20,358 nt of DNA from a virus: positions 1 to 20,358 of IMG/VR virus record IMGVR_UViG_3300025141_000997; one strand, 5' to 3'. Numbering within the stretch: position 1 is the first letter of the stretch; the number at the start of each line of letters is the position of its first letter. Under the pieces are notes generated by a model, which saw only the letters and a list, made by a program, of their open reading frames with translations, had not been told where the DNA came from and searched no databases. Made by a program: the position numbers and the translations under genes. Positions 105 to 20,358 of this stretch are shown here, piece by piece.

Positions 105-1039
105 ATGTCCTCGATTTGTTCAGCGGCATCGGCGGCTTCAGCCTCGGACTTGAGAGAGCCGGAGCTTTTCACACAGTTGCCTTCTGTGAGCGAGAGCCCT
201 TCTGCCAGGCCGTCCTTGGAAAGCACTGGCCCGACACGCCCATCTACGACGATGTCAGAACCATCCCGACAGATAGACTTGGAGGAATTGACCTCATCTG
301 CGGCGGGTTCCCATGCCAGCCCTGGAGTGTCGCCGGGAAGCAGCGAGGCGCGGAAGATGACCGTGATCTCTGGCCGGCGATGGCTGCCCTTGTTAAAAAG
401 CTACGGCCTACATGGGTCATTGGCGAGAATGTCAGAGGTTTTGTTAACCAGCCGATGGGGCTCCAGCGCAGCCTTTCTGACCTGGAAAGCCTCGGCTACG
501 AAGCCGCAGCATTTGTTATTCCAGCTTGCGCCGTCGATGCCCCGCACCGACGCGACCGAGTTTGGATTGTTGCCAACTCCGACAACGCCATTGGGCGGCG
601 GGGAAAGGAGCGGCGACAGGGCTGGCACGGGCAATCTGAACTACATGGCGCGGAAAGGCTTGTGGCCGACGCCCAGCGTGAGGAAGACCGGCGGCGGCGA
701 GTACCAAGACCCGGAAAAGATACGAGCAAGAATGGCAAAGGGTCATCAGACGAATTTGGGAGACATCGTGAAGCTGTGGCCGACGCCCGACGCCACGCCA
801 CGCGGGCCAGCGAAGAAATGGACGGGGACACGCCCAAGCGGAGCCAAGGAATCTTTGACGCTGCAAACGGCAGTAAAGATGTGGTCGATCCCGCAAGGTG
901 GCTCCCTGAACCCGACGTGGGTCGAGTGGCTCATGGGGTTCCCAGAAGGGTGGACCGACTTAAAGCCCTCGGAAATGCCGTTGTCCCGCAAGTCGTCGAG
1001 CAGCTCGGGCGAGCGATAATGGAAGCAAGTGATGAGTGA
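101..1039 (+). CDS. DNA (cytosine-C5) methyltransferase, orphan phage type
   Basis: This 312-residue protein would transfer a methyl group from S-adenosylmethionine to C5 of cytosine in DNA. Seen in sequence: motif I DLFSGIGGFSLGLERAG (residues 5-21, SAM binding); motif IV GGFPCQPWS (68-76) with catalytic Cys72; motif VI ENV (109-111); motif VIII HRRDRVWIV (149-157); motifs IX-X RVDRLKALGNAVVPQVV (283-299). Residues about 158-272, where the target-recognition domain should lie, are Arg/Asp/Lys/Gly-rich and poorly ordered in appearance, with recurring VA(D/N)(A/S) blocks. The start is GTG at 101, with AGGGG at 91-95 as a plausible ribosome site. No restriction endonuclease is adjacent, so a solitary self-protection role is inferred. 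The 3' end overlaps terL by 8 bases. A second long frame covers nearly the whole gene. Confidence 0.93.
   Translation: MNVLDLFSGIGGFSLGLERAGAFHTVAFCEREPFCQAVLGKHWPDTPIYDDVRTIPTDRLGGIDLICGGFPCQPWSVAGKQRGAEDDRDLWPAMAALVKKLRPTWVIGENVRGFVNQPMGLQRSLSDLESLGYEAAAFVIPACAVDAPHRRDRVWIVANSDNAIGRRGKERRQGWHGQSELHGAERLVADAQREEDRRRRVPRPGKDTSKNGKGSSDEFGRHREAVADARRHATRASEEMDGDTPKRSQGIFDAANGSKDVVDPARWLPEPDVGRVAHGVPRRVDRLKALGNAVVPQVVEQLGRAIMEASDE
105..1019 (+). CDS. Overlapping +1-frame ORF inside the methyltransferase gene; W/P-motif protein of unknown function
   Basis: ATG at 105 follows the upstream stop directly (TGA then ATG) and sits 3 bases after AAGGAG (96-101). It opens a 304-codon frame, +1 relative to the methyltransferase. 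The N-terminal third is Ser/Ala/Thr-rich and could be a shadow. From about residue 95 it looks like real protein: hydrophobic/aromatic blocks (AAFLTWKASATKPQHLLFQL), a repeated LLPTPT / LWPTPS / LWPTPD / MWSIPQ motif, and a C-terminal LNPTWVEWLMGFPEGWTDL. From memory, unverified, similar LWPTP- and WLMGFP-containing proteins recur next to or inside phage methyltransferase genes. The WLMGFP segment also resembles the xGFPxx(F/W) block between motifs VIII and IX of C5 methyltransferases. At 602-788 a hand count gives about three-quarters G/C in third positions here, against about half in the methyltransferase frame. The alternative is a conserved but untranslated shadow. Confidence 0.55.
   Translation: MSSICSAASAASASDLREPELFTQLPSVSESPSARPSLESTGPTRPSTTMSEPSRQIDLEELTSSAAGSHASPGVSPGSSEARKMTVISGRRWLPLLKSYGLHGSLARMSEVLLTSRWGSSAAFLTWKASATKPQHLLFQLAPSMPRTDATEFGLLPTPTTPLGGGERSGDRAGTGNLNYMARKGLWPTPSVRKTGGGEYQDPEKIRARMAKGHQTNLGDIVKLWPTPDATPRGPAKKWTGTRPSGAKESLTLQTAVKMWSIPQGGSLNPTWVEWLMGFPEGWTDLKPSEMPLSRKSSSSSGER
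567..893 (+). repeat. Four dispersed copies of a 15-base element, TTGTGGCCGACGCCC type
   Basis: Copies lie at 567-581 (TTGTTGCCAACTCCG), 660-674 (TTGTGGCCGACGCCC), 774-788 (CTGTGGCCGACGCCC) and 879-893 (ATGTGGTCGATCCCG). Copies 2 and 3 differ at one base. All are in the same phase: each encodes VA(D/N)(A/S) or VVDP in the methyltransferase frame and L(L/W)PTP or MWSIP in the overlapping frame. Spacing is irregular (about 93, 114 and 105 bases), so this is not a simple tandem array. Whether selection acts on protein, RNA or DNA cannot be told from one genome. Confidence 0.7.
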
Positions 1040-3319: not shown

Positions 3320-3774
3320 GTGGAACGGGACCGGGCGGTGGAACAGGCGCGCAGGGCGGCAAGGAAAGCCAAATGAGCGCGAAAGGTAATTTATCAGGAT
3401 TAGCGGCTGTGACCGCTGCTGGTCAGGCCGCGTCGCCGGTTGGGAATGTTAGCTCTGGCTTTGCATCGCAGGGTATGGGGCTGGGCGAGGGGGCCGTTGG
3501 CCAGGGCGCGCCTAATCAGTTGACGAGTGGTGCTTCCATCCAACAGGCGTTTTTAACACCAAAGCCAACAGCACCAGGAATTACCGCCGCCGCCACACCG
3601 GCAACGGTGGCTGAAAAATCCCCACTTTACGACAATGCGGCAATATTGGCAGCGGAGAAGCGTAATTTGAGGCAGCGAAAGAGGCCGCTGCTTGCACAAA
3701 CCGATGCCACAGCTTCAACACTTGGTTCATCCGGCAATATATTCAATAGAAAAGACTATGGCACGACGATCTAG
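3316..3774 (+). CDS. Gly/Ala/Thr-rich small phage protein of unknown function
   Basis: This 152-residue protein is coupled to the upstream gene through an ATGA overlap and overlaps the portal start by 17 bases. The first 110 residues are low complexity (Gly, Ala, Ser, Thr, Pro, Gln) and probably disordered. A short charged segment follows (ILAAEKRNLRQRKRP), then SGNIFNRKDYGTT at the C-terminus. The short C-terminal motif resembles ends of small podovirus head proteins I have seen, but I cannot name a family. The gene is supported by its position, coupling and continuous frame rather than by a domain. It may be a minor virion component. Confidence 0.62.
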   Translation: MSGTGPGGGTGAQGGKESQMSAKGNLSGLAAVTAAGQAASPVGNVSSGFASQGMGLGEGAVGQGAPNQLTSGASIQQAFLTPKPTAPGITAAATPATVAEKSPLYDNAAILAAEKRNLRQRKRPLLAQTDATASTLGSSGNIFNRKDYGTTI

Positions 3775-5347
3775 GCGGAAGCCGTCCAAATCAGCCAAAA
3801 AGATCAAAAAACGCTTTGATGCCGCGTGGTCGGCAAAGGAAAACTGGCGTGGTCTTTACGAGCAGTGCTACGAATATGCACTGCCCCAGCGCAACCTCTA
3901 TGATGGAAGCTGGAAATCGGGAACATCAGGCAAGCAAAAAAGCGGCAAGGTGTTCGACAGCACGGCGGTGCATGGCGTTAATCGTTTCGCCAACCGGCTA
4001 CAGTCTGGATTGTTTCCACCCGATAAACATTGGATGGCGTTACAGCCGGGGACAGATATTCCTCCTGAAGCCGATTCTGATGTTCGTATGGGATGCCAGG
4101 AACTAACCGATAGGTTCTTCACGCTTATCCGACAAACCAATTTTGATCTCGCTCTTGGTGAGTTCTTGATGGACCTCGCGGTCGGCACCGGCATCATGTT
4201 GATCCAACCCGGCACCGCGCTCAAGCCGATCAACTTCCGCGCCATCCCCCAATTCCAGGTGGCGTTGGAGGAAGGGCCAGGGGGCGTGGTGGAAAACGTC
4301 TATCGGAAAATCCGCACTCCGGTTGAAAACATTAAACGTGAATGGCCTGACGCCAAGCTCTCCGAAACATTGGAGCGATTGTTGGAAGACAAGCCGCAAG
4401 AGCCTGTCGAGCTACAGGAAAGCACTGTGGTCAACGTGCGCGACGGCGGCTTTGATTATTACATCTGCTACAAGGGCGACGGCGATGAATCCGACATGCT
4501 GGTGTATCGCTATCTAAAAACCTCCCCGTGGGTGGTCTCACGCTACATGAAAGCGAGTGGTGAGGTGTACGGGCGCGGGCCTGTGGTTCAGGCTCTTGAG
4601 GATATCAAATCCTTGAACAAGACAGTCGAGTTGCTTCTCAAGAACGCCAGCATTGGCATCGCCGGGGTATATACAGCCGTTGATGACGGTGTGCTAAACC
4701 CCCAGACGATCCGCATCGTTCCCGGCGCAGTGGTTCCCGTGGCGCGAAATGGCGGGCCGCAAGGGCCATCCCTTCAGCCATTGCCCCGTGCCGGCGATCT
4801 TCAATTGACACAGATTGTCTTGCAAGACCTGCGCATGAACATCAAGCGCATCCTTCTCGATGATAGCCTCCCGCCAGATAATATGAGCGCCCGCAGCGCC
4901 ACGGAGATTGTCGAAAGAATGCGTGAGCTTGCGACCAATCTCGGATCAGCTTTCGGGCGTCTCATTACCGAAACGATGGTGCCGATTGTGGTGCGTTCTA
5001 TGGCAGTCATGGAGGAAGCGCGGATCATTCCCAAGCTGCCGCTATCGATCAACGGCCAGGAGATCAAGGTTGTTCCGGTTTCGCCTTTGGCCCAGGCGCA
5101 GAACATGGACGATGTGCAAGATGTGATGCAGTGGATGGGTATCGCCTCGCAGATGGGGCCGGCGGGACTCGCCACTATCAAGGCAGACGCTATTTCCGAT
5201 TGGGTAGCGGATAGGCTGGGCGTCCCGATGCAGTTGCGAACAACGGAGGAGGAGAGAATGCAGATGGAGCAGATGGCGCAACAGATGATGCAGCAACAGA
5301 TGGCGCAAGGTGATGAAGGACCGCCTCCTGAAGCGGCGCCGGCTTGA
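3758..5347 (+). CDS. Portal (head-to-tail connector) protein
   Basis: The predicted 529-residue protein forms the dodecameric ring at the capsid vertex through which DNA passes. The N-terminal basic stretch leads into AAWSAKENWRGLYEQCYEYALPQ. Mid-protein there is VYGRGPVVQALEDIKSLN, and later LPPDNMSARSATEIVERMREL. All are typical of the T7-type head-tail connector family (PF12236 by recall). The C-terminus is Met/Gln-rich (MEQMAQQMMQQQM) and ends Pro/Ala-rich. The frame is open from TTG 3692, but ATG 3758 gives the usual N-terminus and only a 17-base overlap with the previous gene, so I prefer it. The stop overlaps the next ATG (TGATG, 5345-5349). Confidence 0.93.
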   Translation: MARRSRRKPSKSAKKIKKRFDAAWSAKENWRGLYEQCYEYALPQRNLYDGSWKSGTSGKQKSGKVFDSTAVHGVNRFANRLQSGLFPPDKHWMALQPGTDIPPEADSDVRMGCQELTDRFFTLIRQTNFDLALGEFLMDLAVGTGIMLIQPGTALKPINFRAIPQFQVALEEGPGGVVENVYRKIRTPVENIKREWPDAKLSETLERLLEDKPQEPVELQESTVVNVRDGGFDYYICYKGDGDESDMLVYRYLKTSPWVVSRYMKASGEVYGRGPVVQALEDIKSLNKTVELLLKNASIGIAGVYTAVDDGVLNPQTIRIVPGAVVPVARNGGPQGPSLQPLPRAGDLQLTQIVLQDLRMNIKRILLDDSLPPDNMSARSATEIVERMRELATNLGSAFGRLITETMVPIVVRSMAVMEEARIIPKLPLSINGQEIKVVPVSPLAQAQNMDDVQDVMQWMGIASQMGPAGLATIKADAISDWVADRLGVPMQLRTTEEERMQMEQMAQQMMQQQMAQGDEGPPPEAAPA

Positions 5348-6760: not shown

Positions 6761-6870
6761 GAGCTTGTTCGAGACGGTTGGCAGCGGCGGGAGCCTACCC
6801 GCAAGCCACAGCCGGAAATCTTTCCCCACCTGTATGGCGAATTGATTTAACTCGAACAAGGAGCTTAGAG
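6761..6870 (+). promoter_or_regulatory. Potentially structured 5' leader of the capsid mRNA
   Basis: A perfect 10-base inverted repeat, CTTGTTCGAG (6764-6773) and CTCGAACAAG (6851-6860), could close a 77-base domain. Inside it are a hairpin GCGGG-agccta-CCCGC (6787-6802), extendable by GGC (6780-6782) with GCC (6805-6807), and a small GGAA-atct-TTCC hairpin (6814-6825). The capsid ribosome-binding site AAGGAG (6858-6863) begins inside the closing stem's 3' arm, so pairing could limit ribosome access. There is also a continuous frame from 6778 into the capsid gene, but it uses a non-ATG start with no ribosome site. I know of no named RNA family that matches. Confidence 0.5.
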
Positions 6871-7713
6871 ATGGCTGTTTCTTTAAGCACAAACTTTACC
6901 AAACTCTTCGCGGCTGAAGTTAAACAGGCGTATCAGGGTGTGCAGAAATTGGGCGGTACTTGCCGCACCCGCACGGGTGTCGTGGGGTCCACGGTGCAAT
7001 TTCCGAAAATCGGTAAAGCCAGTGCGACGATACACATTCCCCAAACGGATGTCGTTCCCCTTAACGTGACTCACTCCAATGCGGTCGCCACACTTTCCGA
7101 TTATGCGGCTCCCGAATACACGTCGATTTTCGATCAGCAAAAAGTCAACTACGACGAAAGACAAGAACTCGTCCAAGTTGTCTCTAATGCGATTGGACGG
7201 CGTGTTGACCAGATCAAGTTGGATGCCTTGACGGCTTCCAGCACGAGTCTGACGGTTGCCAATTCCATCGGCGGCGCGAATACGAACCTCAACTTTGCAA
7301 AGGTTCGCGAGGCCAAGCGTCTCCTCGACGGGGCAAACGTCCCGGCGGCGGATCGTTACATGGCTATGCACGCTGATTCTCTGGCCAGCCTCTTATCCGA
7401 AAGTCAAGCCACCAGTTTTGACTATGTTGCGGGTAAGAATCTCATGGACGGAAGTGTCGGGTCGTGGATGGGCTTCAAGATGATAATGATTGGTGACATG
7501 GACGAGGGCGGTCTTGCGATTGATGGCTCCTTGGATCGTTCACTTTTCGCCTGGCACAAAGACTCCATTGGTTACGCAGAGGGTATCGGCATCAAAACCG
7601 AGATCAACTATGTGCCTGAGAAAGCGTCCTGGCTAACCAATTGTATGCTCTCAGCCGGCGCCATCAATATCGATGACGAGGGCATCGTCAAATTGACTTG
7701 CAGAGAGAGTTAG
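6871..7713 (+). CDS. Major capsid protein
   Basis: This 280-residue protein forms the icosahedral shell. Features are an N-terminal helix (TNFTKLFAAEVKQAYQG), TRTGVVGSTVQFPKIG (the T...G..v.FP strand pattern of HK97-fold podovirus capsids), a long helix around DERQELVQVVSNAIGRR, and a C-terminal region with DKSIGYAEG-like DSIGYAEGIG and GAINIDDEGIV. It fits the Phage_capsid_2-type family as I recall it. ATG 6871 is preceded by AAGGAG at 6858-6863 with a seven-base gap. The longer frame from 6778 would add 31 residues unlike a capsid N-terminus. It sits just after scaffold and its own candidate promoter. Confidence 0.92.
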   Translation: MAVSLSTNFTKLFAAEVKQAYQGVQKLGGTCRTRTGVVGSTVQFPKIGKASATIHIPQTDVVPLNVTHSNAVATLSDYAAPEYTSIFDQQKVNYDERQELVQVVSNAIGRRVDQIKLDALTASSTSLTVANSIGGANTNLNFAKVREAKRLLDGANVPAADRYMAMHADSLASLLSESQATSFDYVAGKNLMDGSVGSWMGFKMIMIGDMDEGGLAIDGSLDRSLFAWHKDSIGYAEGIGIKTEINYVPEKASWLTNCMLSAGAINIDDEGIVKLTCRES

Positions 7714-17363: not shown

Positions 17364-19268
17364 ATGGCGATTACCGTAAATGCAGTCCATCGGCGGGTGC
17401 AATACACATCTTCTGGAAGTCTGGGGCCGTACTCGTTTGCCTTCAAGGTTCTGGCGAGTGCTGATATCAAAGTATATGTCGGCTCGACACTCAAAACGGT
17501 CACTACACATTATACGACGAGTTTGAATGCTGATGGGACGGGCAGCGTGACCTTTACCAGCGGTAACGCGCCGGCAAGTTCCACCATTGTCACCATTGAA
17601 AGCAATCAGGCGATTGAACGAACGTCCGACTACACAACGGGCGGCGATTTCAAGGCGACCAGCATCAACGATGATCTCGACAGGCTGGCGATCAATGACC
17701 AGCAGCTTGAGACGGCCATGTCCCGGAATATTCAGCTTCCGGCAAATGTCAATCGCACAACGAGCGGCACGGGTGTTAGTGGCCCGTTGGAATTTCCGTA
17801 TGCCGATTCAGCCAGCGACCAGGCAAACAAATATTTAGTGTACGATGCAAACGGCACTGCGTTAACCACGACTGGGGCGGTGGTTTCAATCGATGGGGCG
17901 ACAGATGTTGACATCACAAGTCCCGCCAACGGCTCGGTTCTCATCTACAGCACTTCATCGGCGAAGTGGGAGGATGGCGTTGCTCTGGCTGGCGACTATG
18001 TTGTGACCGGCAGCCTCACGACCGATAATGTAAAAATTAACGGAACCAATATCGGGCATACAGACGACCTCGATCTCCTCGCTCTGGCTGACAGCGCGCT
18101 GACCGTCAATGGATCGCTGACCGTGACAGGCGCGACCAGCCTGTCAGATGTTAACCTGACCAACGTGGGCGATGTCGCTCTCGACAGCATCAGCGCCGAT
18201 GGCACGCAGATTGATATTGCGCTCACAGACAACGACGCGGCGGCTCTCGACATAACCGAAAGCACAAACAGCTATTTGAAATTTGTCACCACAAACAGCG
18301 GTGAAAAAATAACCCTCGGCAAAAAACTTGAGGCGGGCAGCATTGAGATCGAGGGGAGCGCCTTCGACATCGACGGCGGTGACATTTCCGCTGCCACAAT
18401 TTCCGGTTCGCTGACCTGGAATGCTGCGCAGGACTTGAACAGCCAAGCCCTCACAAACGTCAACATAGACAGCGGCACGATTACCGGCATCACCGATCTC
18501 GCTGTGGCTGACGGTGGCACGGGAGCCTCGACACTCGGCGACGGGCATGTGTTGCTCGGTTCGGGAAGCTCGGCCATTACGGGGCTTGATGTCACAGCCA
18601 AGGGCAGCATGCTTGTGGGCGATGGCAGCGGCGATCCGCGTGCGTTGGCGGTCGGCTCTGACACACATGTACTGACTGCTGATTCGGGCGAGACCAGTGG
18701 CCTCAAGTGGGCGCTTGCCGGCGATGCGTCAGGCCCAGGCTCAAGCACCGACAATGCGATAGCGCGGTTCGATGGGACTGGAGGTAAGACACTTCAAAAT
18801 TCCGGCGTTGTCATCGACGACAACAACATCCTGACTAACAGCGCCCAGCCAGCATTTCTTGGTGCGGCGACTGCCACGCAGGACAATATAACTGGTAATT
18901 CGATCTCTTCTGCAATCGCGTTTGCGGAGATTTTCGACAACAATGCCGACTATGACGGGACCACTTTCACAGCGCCCGTTGCGGGCAGATATCAATTCAA
19001 CGCCAATGTACGATTCGGGGGAGTGACCACCGCCGCAACCAACATCAGTATCGATTTAGTCACGAGCAATCGAGAATACCAAAGCATGAGTCGCATCGAC
19101 GGAAACACCGGCAACAATGCAGGCCAATCGGGGTCTTGGTGTTGCGACATGGATGCCAGCGATACGGCAGTCGTCAAAGTTTTCGGCGAGGGCGAGGGTT
19201 CCAACGTCTGGGATCTCAACATCGGAGCCGCGAAGCTCTGCACATTTAGCGGCTTCTTAGTCGGCTAA
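17364..19268 (+). CDS. Tail fibre protein with T7-type N-terminus and C1q-like C-terminal domain
   Basis: This 634-residue protein would be the receptor-binding fibre. Residues 1-125 match the T7 tail fibre N-terminal domain that docks on the tail: a YTSSGSLGPYSFAFKVL start, GGDFKATSINDDLDRLAIND, and the following MSRNIQLP. Residues about 200-480 are repetitive beta-structure with phrases such as LTVTGATSLSDVNL and VADGGTGASTLGDGHVLLG, seen in many fibres. Residues about 496-634 resemble a C1q/TNF-like trimer domain (IAFAEIFDN...DYDGTTFTAPVAGRYQFNANV, ending CTFSGFLV) and probably form the tip. AGGA at 17351-17354 lies nine bases upstream of ATG. Confidence 0.9.
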   Translation: MAITVNAVHRRVQYTSSGSLGPYSFAFKVLASADIKVYVGSTLKTVTTHYTTSLNADGTGSVTFTSGNAPASSTIVTIESNQAIERTSDYTTGGDFKATSINDDLDRLAINDQQLETAMSRNIQLPANVNRTTSGTGVSGPLEFPYADSASDQANKYLVYDANGTALTTTGAVVSIDGATDVDITSPANGSVLIYSTSSAKWEDGVALAGDYVVTGSLTTDNVKINGTNIGHTDDLDLLALADSALTVNGSLTVTGATSLSDVNLTNVGDVALDSISADGTQIDIALTDNDAAALDITESTNSYLKFVTTNSGEKITLGKKLEAGSIEIEGSAFDIDGGDISAATISGSLTWNAAQDLNSQALTNVNIDSGTITGITDLAVADGGTGASTLGDGHVLLGSGSSAITGLDVTAKGSMLVGDGSGDPRALAVGSDTHVLTADSGETSGLKWALAGDASGPGSSTDNAIARFDGTGGKTLQNSGVVIDDNNILTNSAQPAFLGAATATQDNITGNSISSAIAFAEIFDNNADYDGTTFTAPVAGRYQFNANVRFGGVTTAATNISIDLVTSNREYQSMSRIDGNTGNNAGQSGSWCCDMDASDTAVVKVFGEGEGSNVWDLNIGAAKLCTFSGFLVG

Positions 19269-19569: not shown

Positions 19570-19759
19570 CCGGCTCACGCATGAGATCAGCCAATCCGAT
19601 CTGATCATTGTCCTACAGGGCGATGTCCAGCGGCTGGTTCTCGAGACGATCAGCTTGAGGGCGGCGATAATGACGCTTCGGCGCGAGTGCGAACTCTACG
19701 CGAATATGGTCGCAACCGCGCCCGACGACGACGAAATAAAAATTGGAGGCACGGCATGA
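19562..19759 (+). CDS. Small coiled-coil-like protein of unknown function
   Basis: This 65-residue protein has a mainly helical middle (SDLIIVLQGDVQRLVLETIS, then LRAAIMTLRRECELYANM) with leucine/isoleucine at heptad-like spacing, and an acidic tail. It overlaps both neighbours (8 bases upstream, ATGA downstream), consistent with a real coupled gene. There is no signal peptide or membrane segment, so it is not an obvious holin or spanin. Confidence 0.6.
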   Translation: MADRLTHEISQSDLIIVLQGDVQRLVLETISLRAAIMTLRRECELYANMVATAPDDDEIKIGGTA

Positions 19760-20358
19760 TGTTTTTTCTCCCTATTTTGATAGCAGCGCTAATCGCCTTT
19801 TCGATCCCGGCTGTCGCGGCTCAACAGGCAGAAGCCGTGCCGGTCGCGGAACACGAGCAGATGCTCTATCCGACTGTTTTAGTTCGCCTGGGCGATGGCA
19901 CGGGCAGCGGCACGGTGATTCATTCCGCCAAGAACGCGGCGGGCGAGTACGAGAGTTATGTCCTCACAAATTATCATGTGATCAGAAACTATGTGAAGCT
20001 CACAAAAATTTGGGATAGCGAAAAAAAGGAGCATGTGGAAACGGAGACCCGGCGCCCGGTTAATGTAGACCTCTGGGAATATAACAACTACAGCTCTGCC
20101 GTTGGGACAATTGGCCGACTGGCTAATATAGTCGCCTACGACAAATCGCGTGATTTGGCATTGCTGATGATCGAGGACCGGGAGCGCCCGATGCCCTACG
20201 TCGCCGCGCTCTATCCCGAGGGTGCTGATGATGGCCCCTGGATTTTTCAGCAGGTCTTTGCCGTTGGCGCGGGCCTGGGCAAACCGCCGTTTCCAACCGT
20301 TGGCGTCCTGGCTGGATATGGCCGAGATCAGGACGGCAACGCGCTGTATCTGGCATCA
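19756..20358 (+). CDS. Secreted trypsin-like serine protease (partial, runs off the window)
   Basis: A continuous frame of 201 codons runs from ATG 19756 to the window end with no stop. GGAGG at 19745-19749 lies six bases upstream. Residues 1-22 form a signal peptide (hydrophobic FFLPILIAALIAF, then AVAA), predicting export. GTGSGTVIHS is followed by YVLTNYHVI with His74, and DKSRDLALLMIE with Asp133, the His and Asp of a trypsin/DegP-like (S1 clan PA) triad. The Ser motif (G-x-S-G-G) would lie beyond the window. The gene is coupled to the previous one by ATGA. A phage-encoded exported protease could act on host surface proteins or during lysis. Confidence 0.82.
   Translation, partial: MMFFLPILIAALIAFSIPAVAAQQAEAVPVAEHEQMLYPTVLVRLGDGTGSGTVIHSAKNAAGEYESYVLTNYHVIRNYVKLTKIWDSEKKEHVETETRRPVNVDLWEYNNYSSAVGTIGRLANIVAYDKSRDLALLMIEDRERPMPYVAALYPEGADDGPWIFQQVFAVGAGLGKPPFPTVGVLAGYGRDQDGNALYLAS

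Follow-up and report, generated by a model that had tools for sequence, protein, structure and literature searches.

The locus described here raises a simple question: do two open reading frames that cover the same viral DNA encode one protein or two? The window (the whole stretch of DNA that was analysed, which is the entire virus record of 20,358 bases) contains an ORF in frame 0, hereafter alpha (101-1,039; GTG start, 312 amino acids), and an ORF in the +1 frame (105-1,019; ATG start, 304 amino acids); all features given below are on the forward strand. Both ORFs were found as the first-pass annotation had described them, with starts four bases apart and with the peptides that it quoted from the +1 frame. 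The openness of the +1 frame alone is weak evidence, and mildly unusual at most: the gene has a G+C content of 60%, and when synonymous codons were shuffled the +1 frame stayed open with probabilities of 0.56 (codons 1-50), 0.07 (codons 65-160), and 0.65 (codon 160 to motif IX), the product being about 3%. The finding therefore rests on conservation, not on length. The rest of the window contains a terminase-like gene (1,029-2,555) and, downstream of it, genes matching Bacteriophage head-tail connector (3,692-5,347; PF12236, 8e-103) and Phage_capsid_2 (6,778-7,713; PF19821, 5e-67), a podovirus-like order; there are also a tail-fibre-like protein with a terminal C1q domain (17,364-19,268; PF00386, 5e-6), and a Trypsin-like peptidase domain following a signal-like N-terminus (19,687-20,358; PF13365, 2.3e-7), which is cut by the record end.

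Alpha is the large chain of a C5-cytosine methyltransferase, containing motifs I-VIII (approximately codons 1-160) and motif X. The first-pass annotation had credited this frame with all core motifs, but the PF00145 match (E=1.7e-45) covers residues 1-163 only, and motif IX is encoded in the +1 frame; RVAHGVP, an alpha peptide previously taken as the lead-in to motif IX, turned out to be an out-of-frame reading of the motif IX in the +1 protein. The AlphaFold2 (AF2) model of alpha has a Rossmann core at residues 1-166 whose pLDDT is mostly above 90, dipping at about 71-90 and 141-150. The values fall to 35-56 for residues 167-288 (approximate limits) and rise to 78-94 for 290-312, so that alpha is predicted to be disordered where a recognition domain should sit. 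A Foldseek search with this model matched M.HhaI and M.HaeIII over 167 columns, and sequence profiles concur.

We scanned viral contigs with each frame as a query and obtained 160 loci. Together with phage records, and with the window included, the second frame is exactly +1 to the first in 164 of 166 sequences; the exceptions (L010 and L121) are two entries of one contig. Matches were found in annotated phages of Paenibacillus, Lacticaseibacillus, Vibrio, Salmonella, Escherichia, Klebsiella, Pseudomonas, and Mycobacterium, and the nested pair was read directly in examples from Paenibacillus, Lacticaseibacillus, Escherichia, Salmonella, Mycobacterium, and Pseudomonas. These loci are mostly annotated as one gene, and as two overlapping genes in some Paenibacillus phages. 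A scan of bacterial genomes for the +1 protein (hereafter beta) retained 80 loci from many phyla that matched both profiles.

Homologues of the locus (sets of 114-118 genes) revealed where each frame is under selection. Among the 114 genes used for the stop test, +1 stops occur up to alpha codon 60, and none from codon 61 on: we counted 162 stops in codons 1-50 (139 expected), none in codons 65-160 (340 expected), and none from codon 160 to motif IX (161 expected). Frame-specific omegas were obtained by a simple pairwise count, without multiple-hit correction, from 38 disjoint pairs that share deeper ancestry, the recognition region being represented by its alignable blocks only. In the first segment (101-280; codons 1-60, motifs I-III) only alpha appears constrained (alpha omega 0.15; beta omega 0.89, 95% interval 0.70-1.15). 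In the segment that follows (281-574), which holds alpha motifs IV-VIII and the N-terminal part of beta (...LTWKASATKPQHLLFQLAPSMPRT...), both frames are constrained, with beta omegas of 0.50 and 0.40, and alpha omegas of 0.19 and 0.20, for codons 61-85 and 86-158, respectively. From motif VIII to motif X (575-958; VADA..., RVAHGVPRRVDR) the alpha frame, with its pLDDT of 35-56, looks like a non-functional linker: over the recognition region alpha omega is 0.95 (0.78-1.12) and beta omega 0.25, and over motif IX, which is read in the frame of beta (906-962; LNPTWVEWLMGFPEGWTDL), they are 0.77 (0.57-1.17) and 0.29. Constraint returns to the frame of alpha at motif X (959-1,033; LKALGNAVVPQVVEQLGRAIMEASD; alpha omega 0.18, beta omega 0.84, 0.63-1.13), where residues L290, G291, and N292 are invariant. 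The intervals that include 1 are thus, for beta, those in codons 1-60 and motif X and, for alpha, those in the recognition region and motif IX. Along the gene, selection acts first on alpha, next on both frames, then on beta, and finally on alpha again.

Raw counts concur with the omegas. The mismatch rates at alpha codon positions 1, 2, and 3 are.099,.055, and.316 in codons 1-63;.093,.041, and.146 in codons 64-157;.278,.118, and.097 in the recognition region;.144,.045, and.062 in motif IX; and.091,.072, and.310 in motif X. The rate at the third position is halved in the dual-coded segment (.146 vs.316), and over the recognition region alpha evolves as if it were non-coding. By these measures of sequence evolution both proteins are constrained, within definite boundaries. 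Dual coding had been proposed for about 900 bp; selection in both frames is confined to approximately codons 61-158, which is about 300 bp (about 281-574 of the window, or 252-574 should beta begin at ATG 252). The first-pass annotation had also named the results that should count against it, namely +1 stops in homologues and a lack of +1 constraint; we ran both tests, and both outcomes favour translation. Over the target-recognition half of the gene, the shadow is the methyltransferase frame.

The position where +1 constraint begins also bears on the start of beta. An in-frame ATG at approximately alpha codons 49-65 is present in 86 of 118 genes (shuffle mean 62), and 44 of 118 have an ATG with a Shine-Dalgarno-like site near these codons (shuffle mean 9.5, maximum 19). 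For the window itself, the ATG at 252 appears to be the best candidate, giving a putative beta gene nested in the +1 frame (252-1,019; 255 amino acids, MSEPSRQIDLEELTSS...), with TTG 279 or TTG 288 as alternative starts; a Shine-Dalgarno match was sought at ATG 252 and none was found. We rejected ATG 105 as the start of beta, since codons 1-60 lack +1 constraint, and since the +1 stops in codons 1-50 exceed expectation; among the 44 genes that are open there, substitutions track alpha only, and five have an ATG at the site. Chance thus accounts for the openness of the +1 frame up to about codon 50, and beta probably starts near 252, not at 105.

Could a single chain be made from both frames instead? 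Programmed frameshifting, in which translation would begin at the alpha start, shift to +1 after motif VIII, and perhaps shift back before motif X, would explain why motifs I-VIII, the recognition region, IX, and X follow one another as in a single-chain enzyme, and the gap between IX and X is only about 14 nt in most loci. This fused chain is nevertheless highly improbable, as it requires two opposite shifts, and constraint on beta sets in at codon 61, some 100 codons ahead of the end of motif VIII, which would leave most of the N-terminal part of beta without purpose. Moreover, start codons with Shine-Dalgarno-like sites are enriched near where this constraint begins, and by eye no shared slippery sequence is apparent near codon 60.

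Rearranged relatives further clarify what beta is. We used a DNA pattern that requires motif IX and then motif X within 36 nt, leaving the rest of each gene outside the pattern, and found the two motifs out of frame (gap 2 mod 3) in 79 of 80 viral loci. The remaining locus, L253, encodes I-VIII, IX, and X without a change of frame, and its motif IX (LAVPFVEWMMGFPEGWVDG) is close to that of beta. In three loci (L154, L156, and L157) a stop ends the alpha frame once motif VIII is complete, many more stops follow, and the beta ORF continues through the cassettes, IX, and X in one frame; L193, from a Bacillota genome, has the same layout, with IX and X in the beta ORF. One contig (L010; 3300025112_000507, 100-2,000) has a tandem arrangement, in which a complete alpha/beta pair is followed by a second complete beta whose overlapping alpha frame lacks motifs I-IV and X; by its sequence, this locus possibly encodes one catalytic subunit with two specificity subunits. 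Two candidate counter-examples (L300 and L315) were set aside, since each swaps frame once, close to where the recognition region ends, which fits a single-base indel or an assembly error.

Some other loci depart from the common pattern at individual motifs. In L006 (contig 3300025112_000451) and L120, alpha motif IV reads GGFP*LCQPW, with an in-frame stop and an extra leucine before the catalytic cysteine, and the beta frame stays open; a DNA pattern for the TGA form was found in the L006 contig only, so L120 must differ in sequence there. The genome contigs L228 and L227 contain extra motif-IX-like stretches (INPEWAEWLMGYMGQ and TNPELLEWMMGYQRA) within the recognition region, and their motif pieces are in swapped frames.

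Beta belongs to a family that has been seen before under a general name. The +1 ORF (105-1,019) matched the PHROGs family phrog_1008, 'DNA methyltransferase', at 1.1e-32, and beta (252-1,019) matched it with E=4.1e-33, as did all 85 of 85 beta proteins in our alignment (best E 2.6e-44); this is the same family as beta, but the label says just 'DNA methyltransferase' and the nested subunit is unmentioned. Searches with the +1 ORF gave no match in Pfam or NCBIfam, and the beta profile matched none of the solved chains in the PDB by sequence. The AF2 model of beta alone is poor (pLDDT 62.9, pTM 0.34), and a Foldseek search with it returned nothing significant; a chain that needs its partner in order to fold could well give such a result, which itself lends the two-chain model no support.

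The lack of a Pfam or NCBIfam match and of a solved relative would suit an overprinted accessory protein, i.e. a new beta with an unrelated function (e.g. an anti-restriction factor) that overlaps the methyltransferase by chance. We consider this scarcely credible, given that beta holds motif IX, shared with the single-chain enzyme of L253, and runs in frame into motif X in L193 and in L154, L156, and L157; alpha, in turn, lacks both motif IX and a constrained recognition region, and so needs both from elsewhere. That the +1 ORF is an untranslated shadow, conserved in appearance only through methyltransferase amino acids and codon usage, is just as hard to credit and is refuted as far as sequence evolution can refute it: high G+C does keep codons 1-60 open by chance, and much of the similarity in the N-terminal part of the +1 frame coincides with invariant catalytic motifs, but in both the recognition region and motif IX it is beta that is constrained and not alpha, about 500 expected stops are absent, and relatives retain beta where stops close the frame of alpha. 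Stop avoidance, +1 constraint, and the rearranged relatives thus bear out the earlier suggestion of a conserved overlapping pair.

The recognition region of beta is modular. Between its dual-coded part and motif IX, beta contains one to five cassettes, each opening with LWPTP or a similar sequence (LLPTP/LWPTP). The window has three: cassette 1 (567-659; LLPTPTTPLGGGERSGDRAGTGNLNYMARKG) was assigned by cassette clustering and is common to L087; cassette 2 (660-773; LWPTPSVRKTGGGEYQDPEKIRARMAKGHQTNLGDIVK) comes from the cassette split, and has a similar cassette in the second beta of L010; and cassette 3 (774-899; LWPTPDATPRGPAKKWTGTRPSGAKESLTLQTAVK...) is the same cassette as in L007, L088, L089, L092, L094, and L115. 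In total, 297 cassettes fell into 150 clusters, which recur at different positions. We found 55 pairs of genes whose DNA is 90% identical or more across alpha codons 1-158, and in 31 of the 55 the beta recognition regions are less than 50% identical. Several exchangeable cassettes between motifs VIII and IX are also the mark of a multispecific phage C5 methyltransferase, and the exchangeable recognition domains of those enzymes behave like the cassettes of beta. The shuffling of cassettes, like the placement of motif IX in beta, is established by these patterns of sequence evolution; each cassette probably has its own DNA recognition site.

The locus is thus very probably a split two-subunit C5 methyltransferase similar to M.EcoHK31I, in which beta would be a shuffled, multi-cassette specificity subunit; a specificity factor, one of the roles suggested at first, is the best-supported role for the +1 protein. 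The mechanism that we infer, from evolution and from knowledge of the family, is as follows. Alpha (frame 0) would contribute motifs I-VIII, which make up the domain for SAM binding and catalysis, and the helix of motif X at its C-terminus; beta, translated in the +1 frame from its own start near 252, would supply the small domain, made up of motif IX and a target-recognition region of LWPTP-type cassettes. The two chains, both of them presumably needed, would together form the counterpart of a single C5 methyltransferase, in which beta would determine the DNA sequence or sequences to be methylated. Phages would then swap or add beta cassettes and so alter specificity, probably evading host restriction.

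The arrangement, known from one studied enzyme, is kept across many phages and prophages, and is mostly missed by annotation; what is annotated in them as a single cytosine methyltransferase appears in many cases to be a pair of proteins. We lean towards a broader reading as well, namely that these loci form a large and mostly unannotated phage and prophage class, whose specificity would reside in an exchangeable, multi-cassette subunit in a nested frame, working like HsdS of Type I systems; one catalytic subunit would pair with such a protein, or in some phages with more than one (as in L010), and the catalytic frame over the recognition region would be an unselected linker. If the two-subunit reading is correct, recoding or codon-optimising such a gene for expression would silently destroy its specificity subunit, and recognition-domain assignments on the large chain would be wrong. 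The gene would also be a natural case of selection switching frame three times, and would provide cytosine methylation with a specificity subunit that is both modular and swappable. Beta had been put forward as an undescribed partner of phage methyltransferases; a partner it very likely is, but M.EcoHK31I already has motif IX in a separate small polypeptide, and PHROGs already includes phrog_1008. A literature search of partial coverage found no description of nested methyltransferase genes in phages.

How does this locus compare with known enzymes? It differs from a single-frame C5 methyltransferase (PF00145) in that motif IX and the recognition region are constrained in the +1 frame only. 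M.EcoHK31I (YGGCCR) was reportedly described as a two-polypeptide C5 methyltransferase by Lee, Kam and Shaw in 1995. The gene for its small chain is nested in that for the large one, in another frame. The large chain contains motifs I-VIII and X and the predicted target-recognition domain, and the small chain contains motif IX (PMC3404938). Compared with M.EcoHK31I by description only, alpha is alike in having I-VIII and X and lacking IX, and beta in having IX. The difference is that the predicted recognition domain of M.EcoHK31I is in the large chain, whereas the region between VIII and IX is constrained here in the frame of the small chain only; we therefore file the locus as a variant of the EcoHK31I type. 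M.AquI (CYCGRG) also consists of two chains, the second having the recognition sequence and motif IX. It is split inside the recognition region (PMC3404938). Its layout, with IX and X on the second chain, is found in L154, L156, L157, and L193; the window differs, since there alpha retains motif X and encloses the beta frame, and it is thus not of the AquI type.

M.BatI, an orphan C5 methyltransferase of a Bacillus anthracis prophage, has a gene 20-30% smaller than usual, and was active when expressed in E. coli from native DNA (PMC8936443). By analogy M.BatI may belong to the nested type, and any nested beta would then have been expressed without being noticed. We rejected L152 as the B. anthracis enzyme, since the CxGxxG motif I that M.BatI is reported to have is absent from L152. 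By Megablast, the DNA of L152 is about 83% similar to Lacticaseibacillus phages, the similarity being confined to query positions 203-498 (alpha codons 68-166); this span approximates the dual-coded segment, which is consistent with double constraint or with recombination.

Finally, SPR, phi3T, rho11, and H2 encode orphan phage C5 methyltransferases whose specificity is altered by adding or exchanging recognition cassettes. Multispecific phage C5 methyltransferases are also cited in the study of M.BatI (PMC8936443). The SPR, phi3T, rho11, and H2 enzymes are single chains in one frame, whereas the cassettes described here are in a nested second frame.
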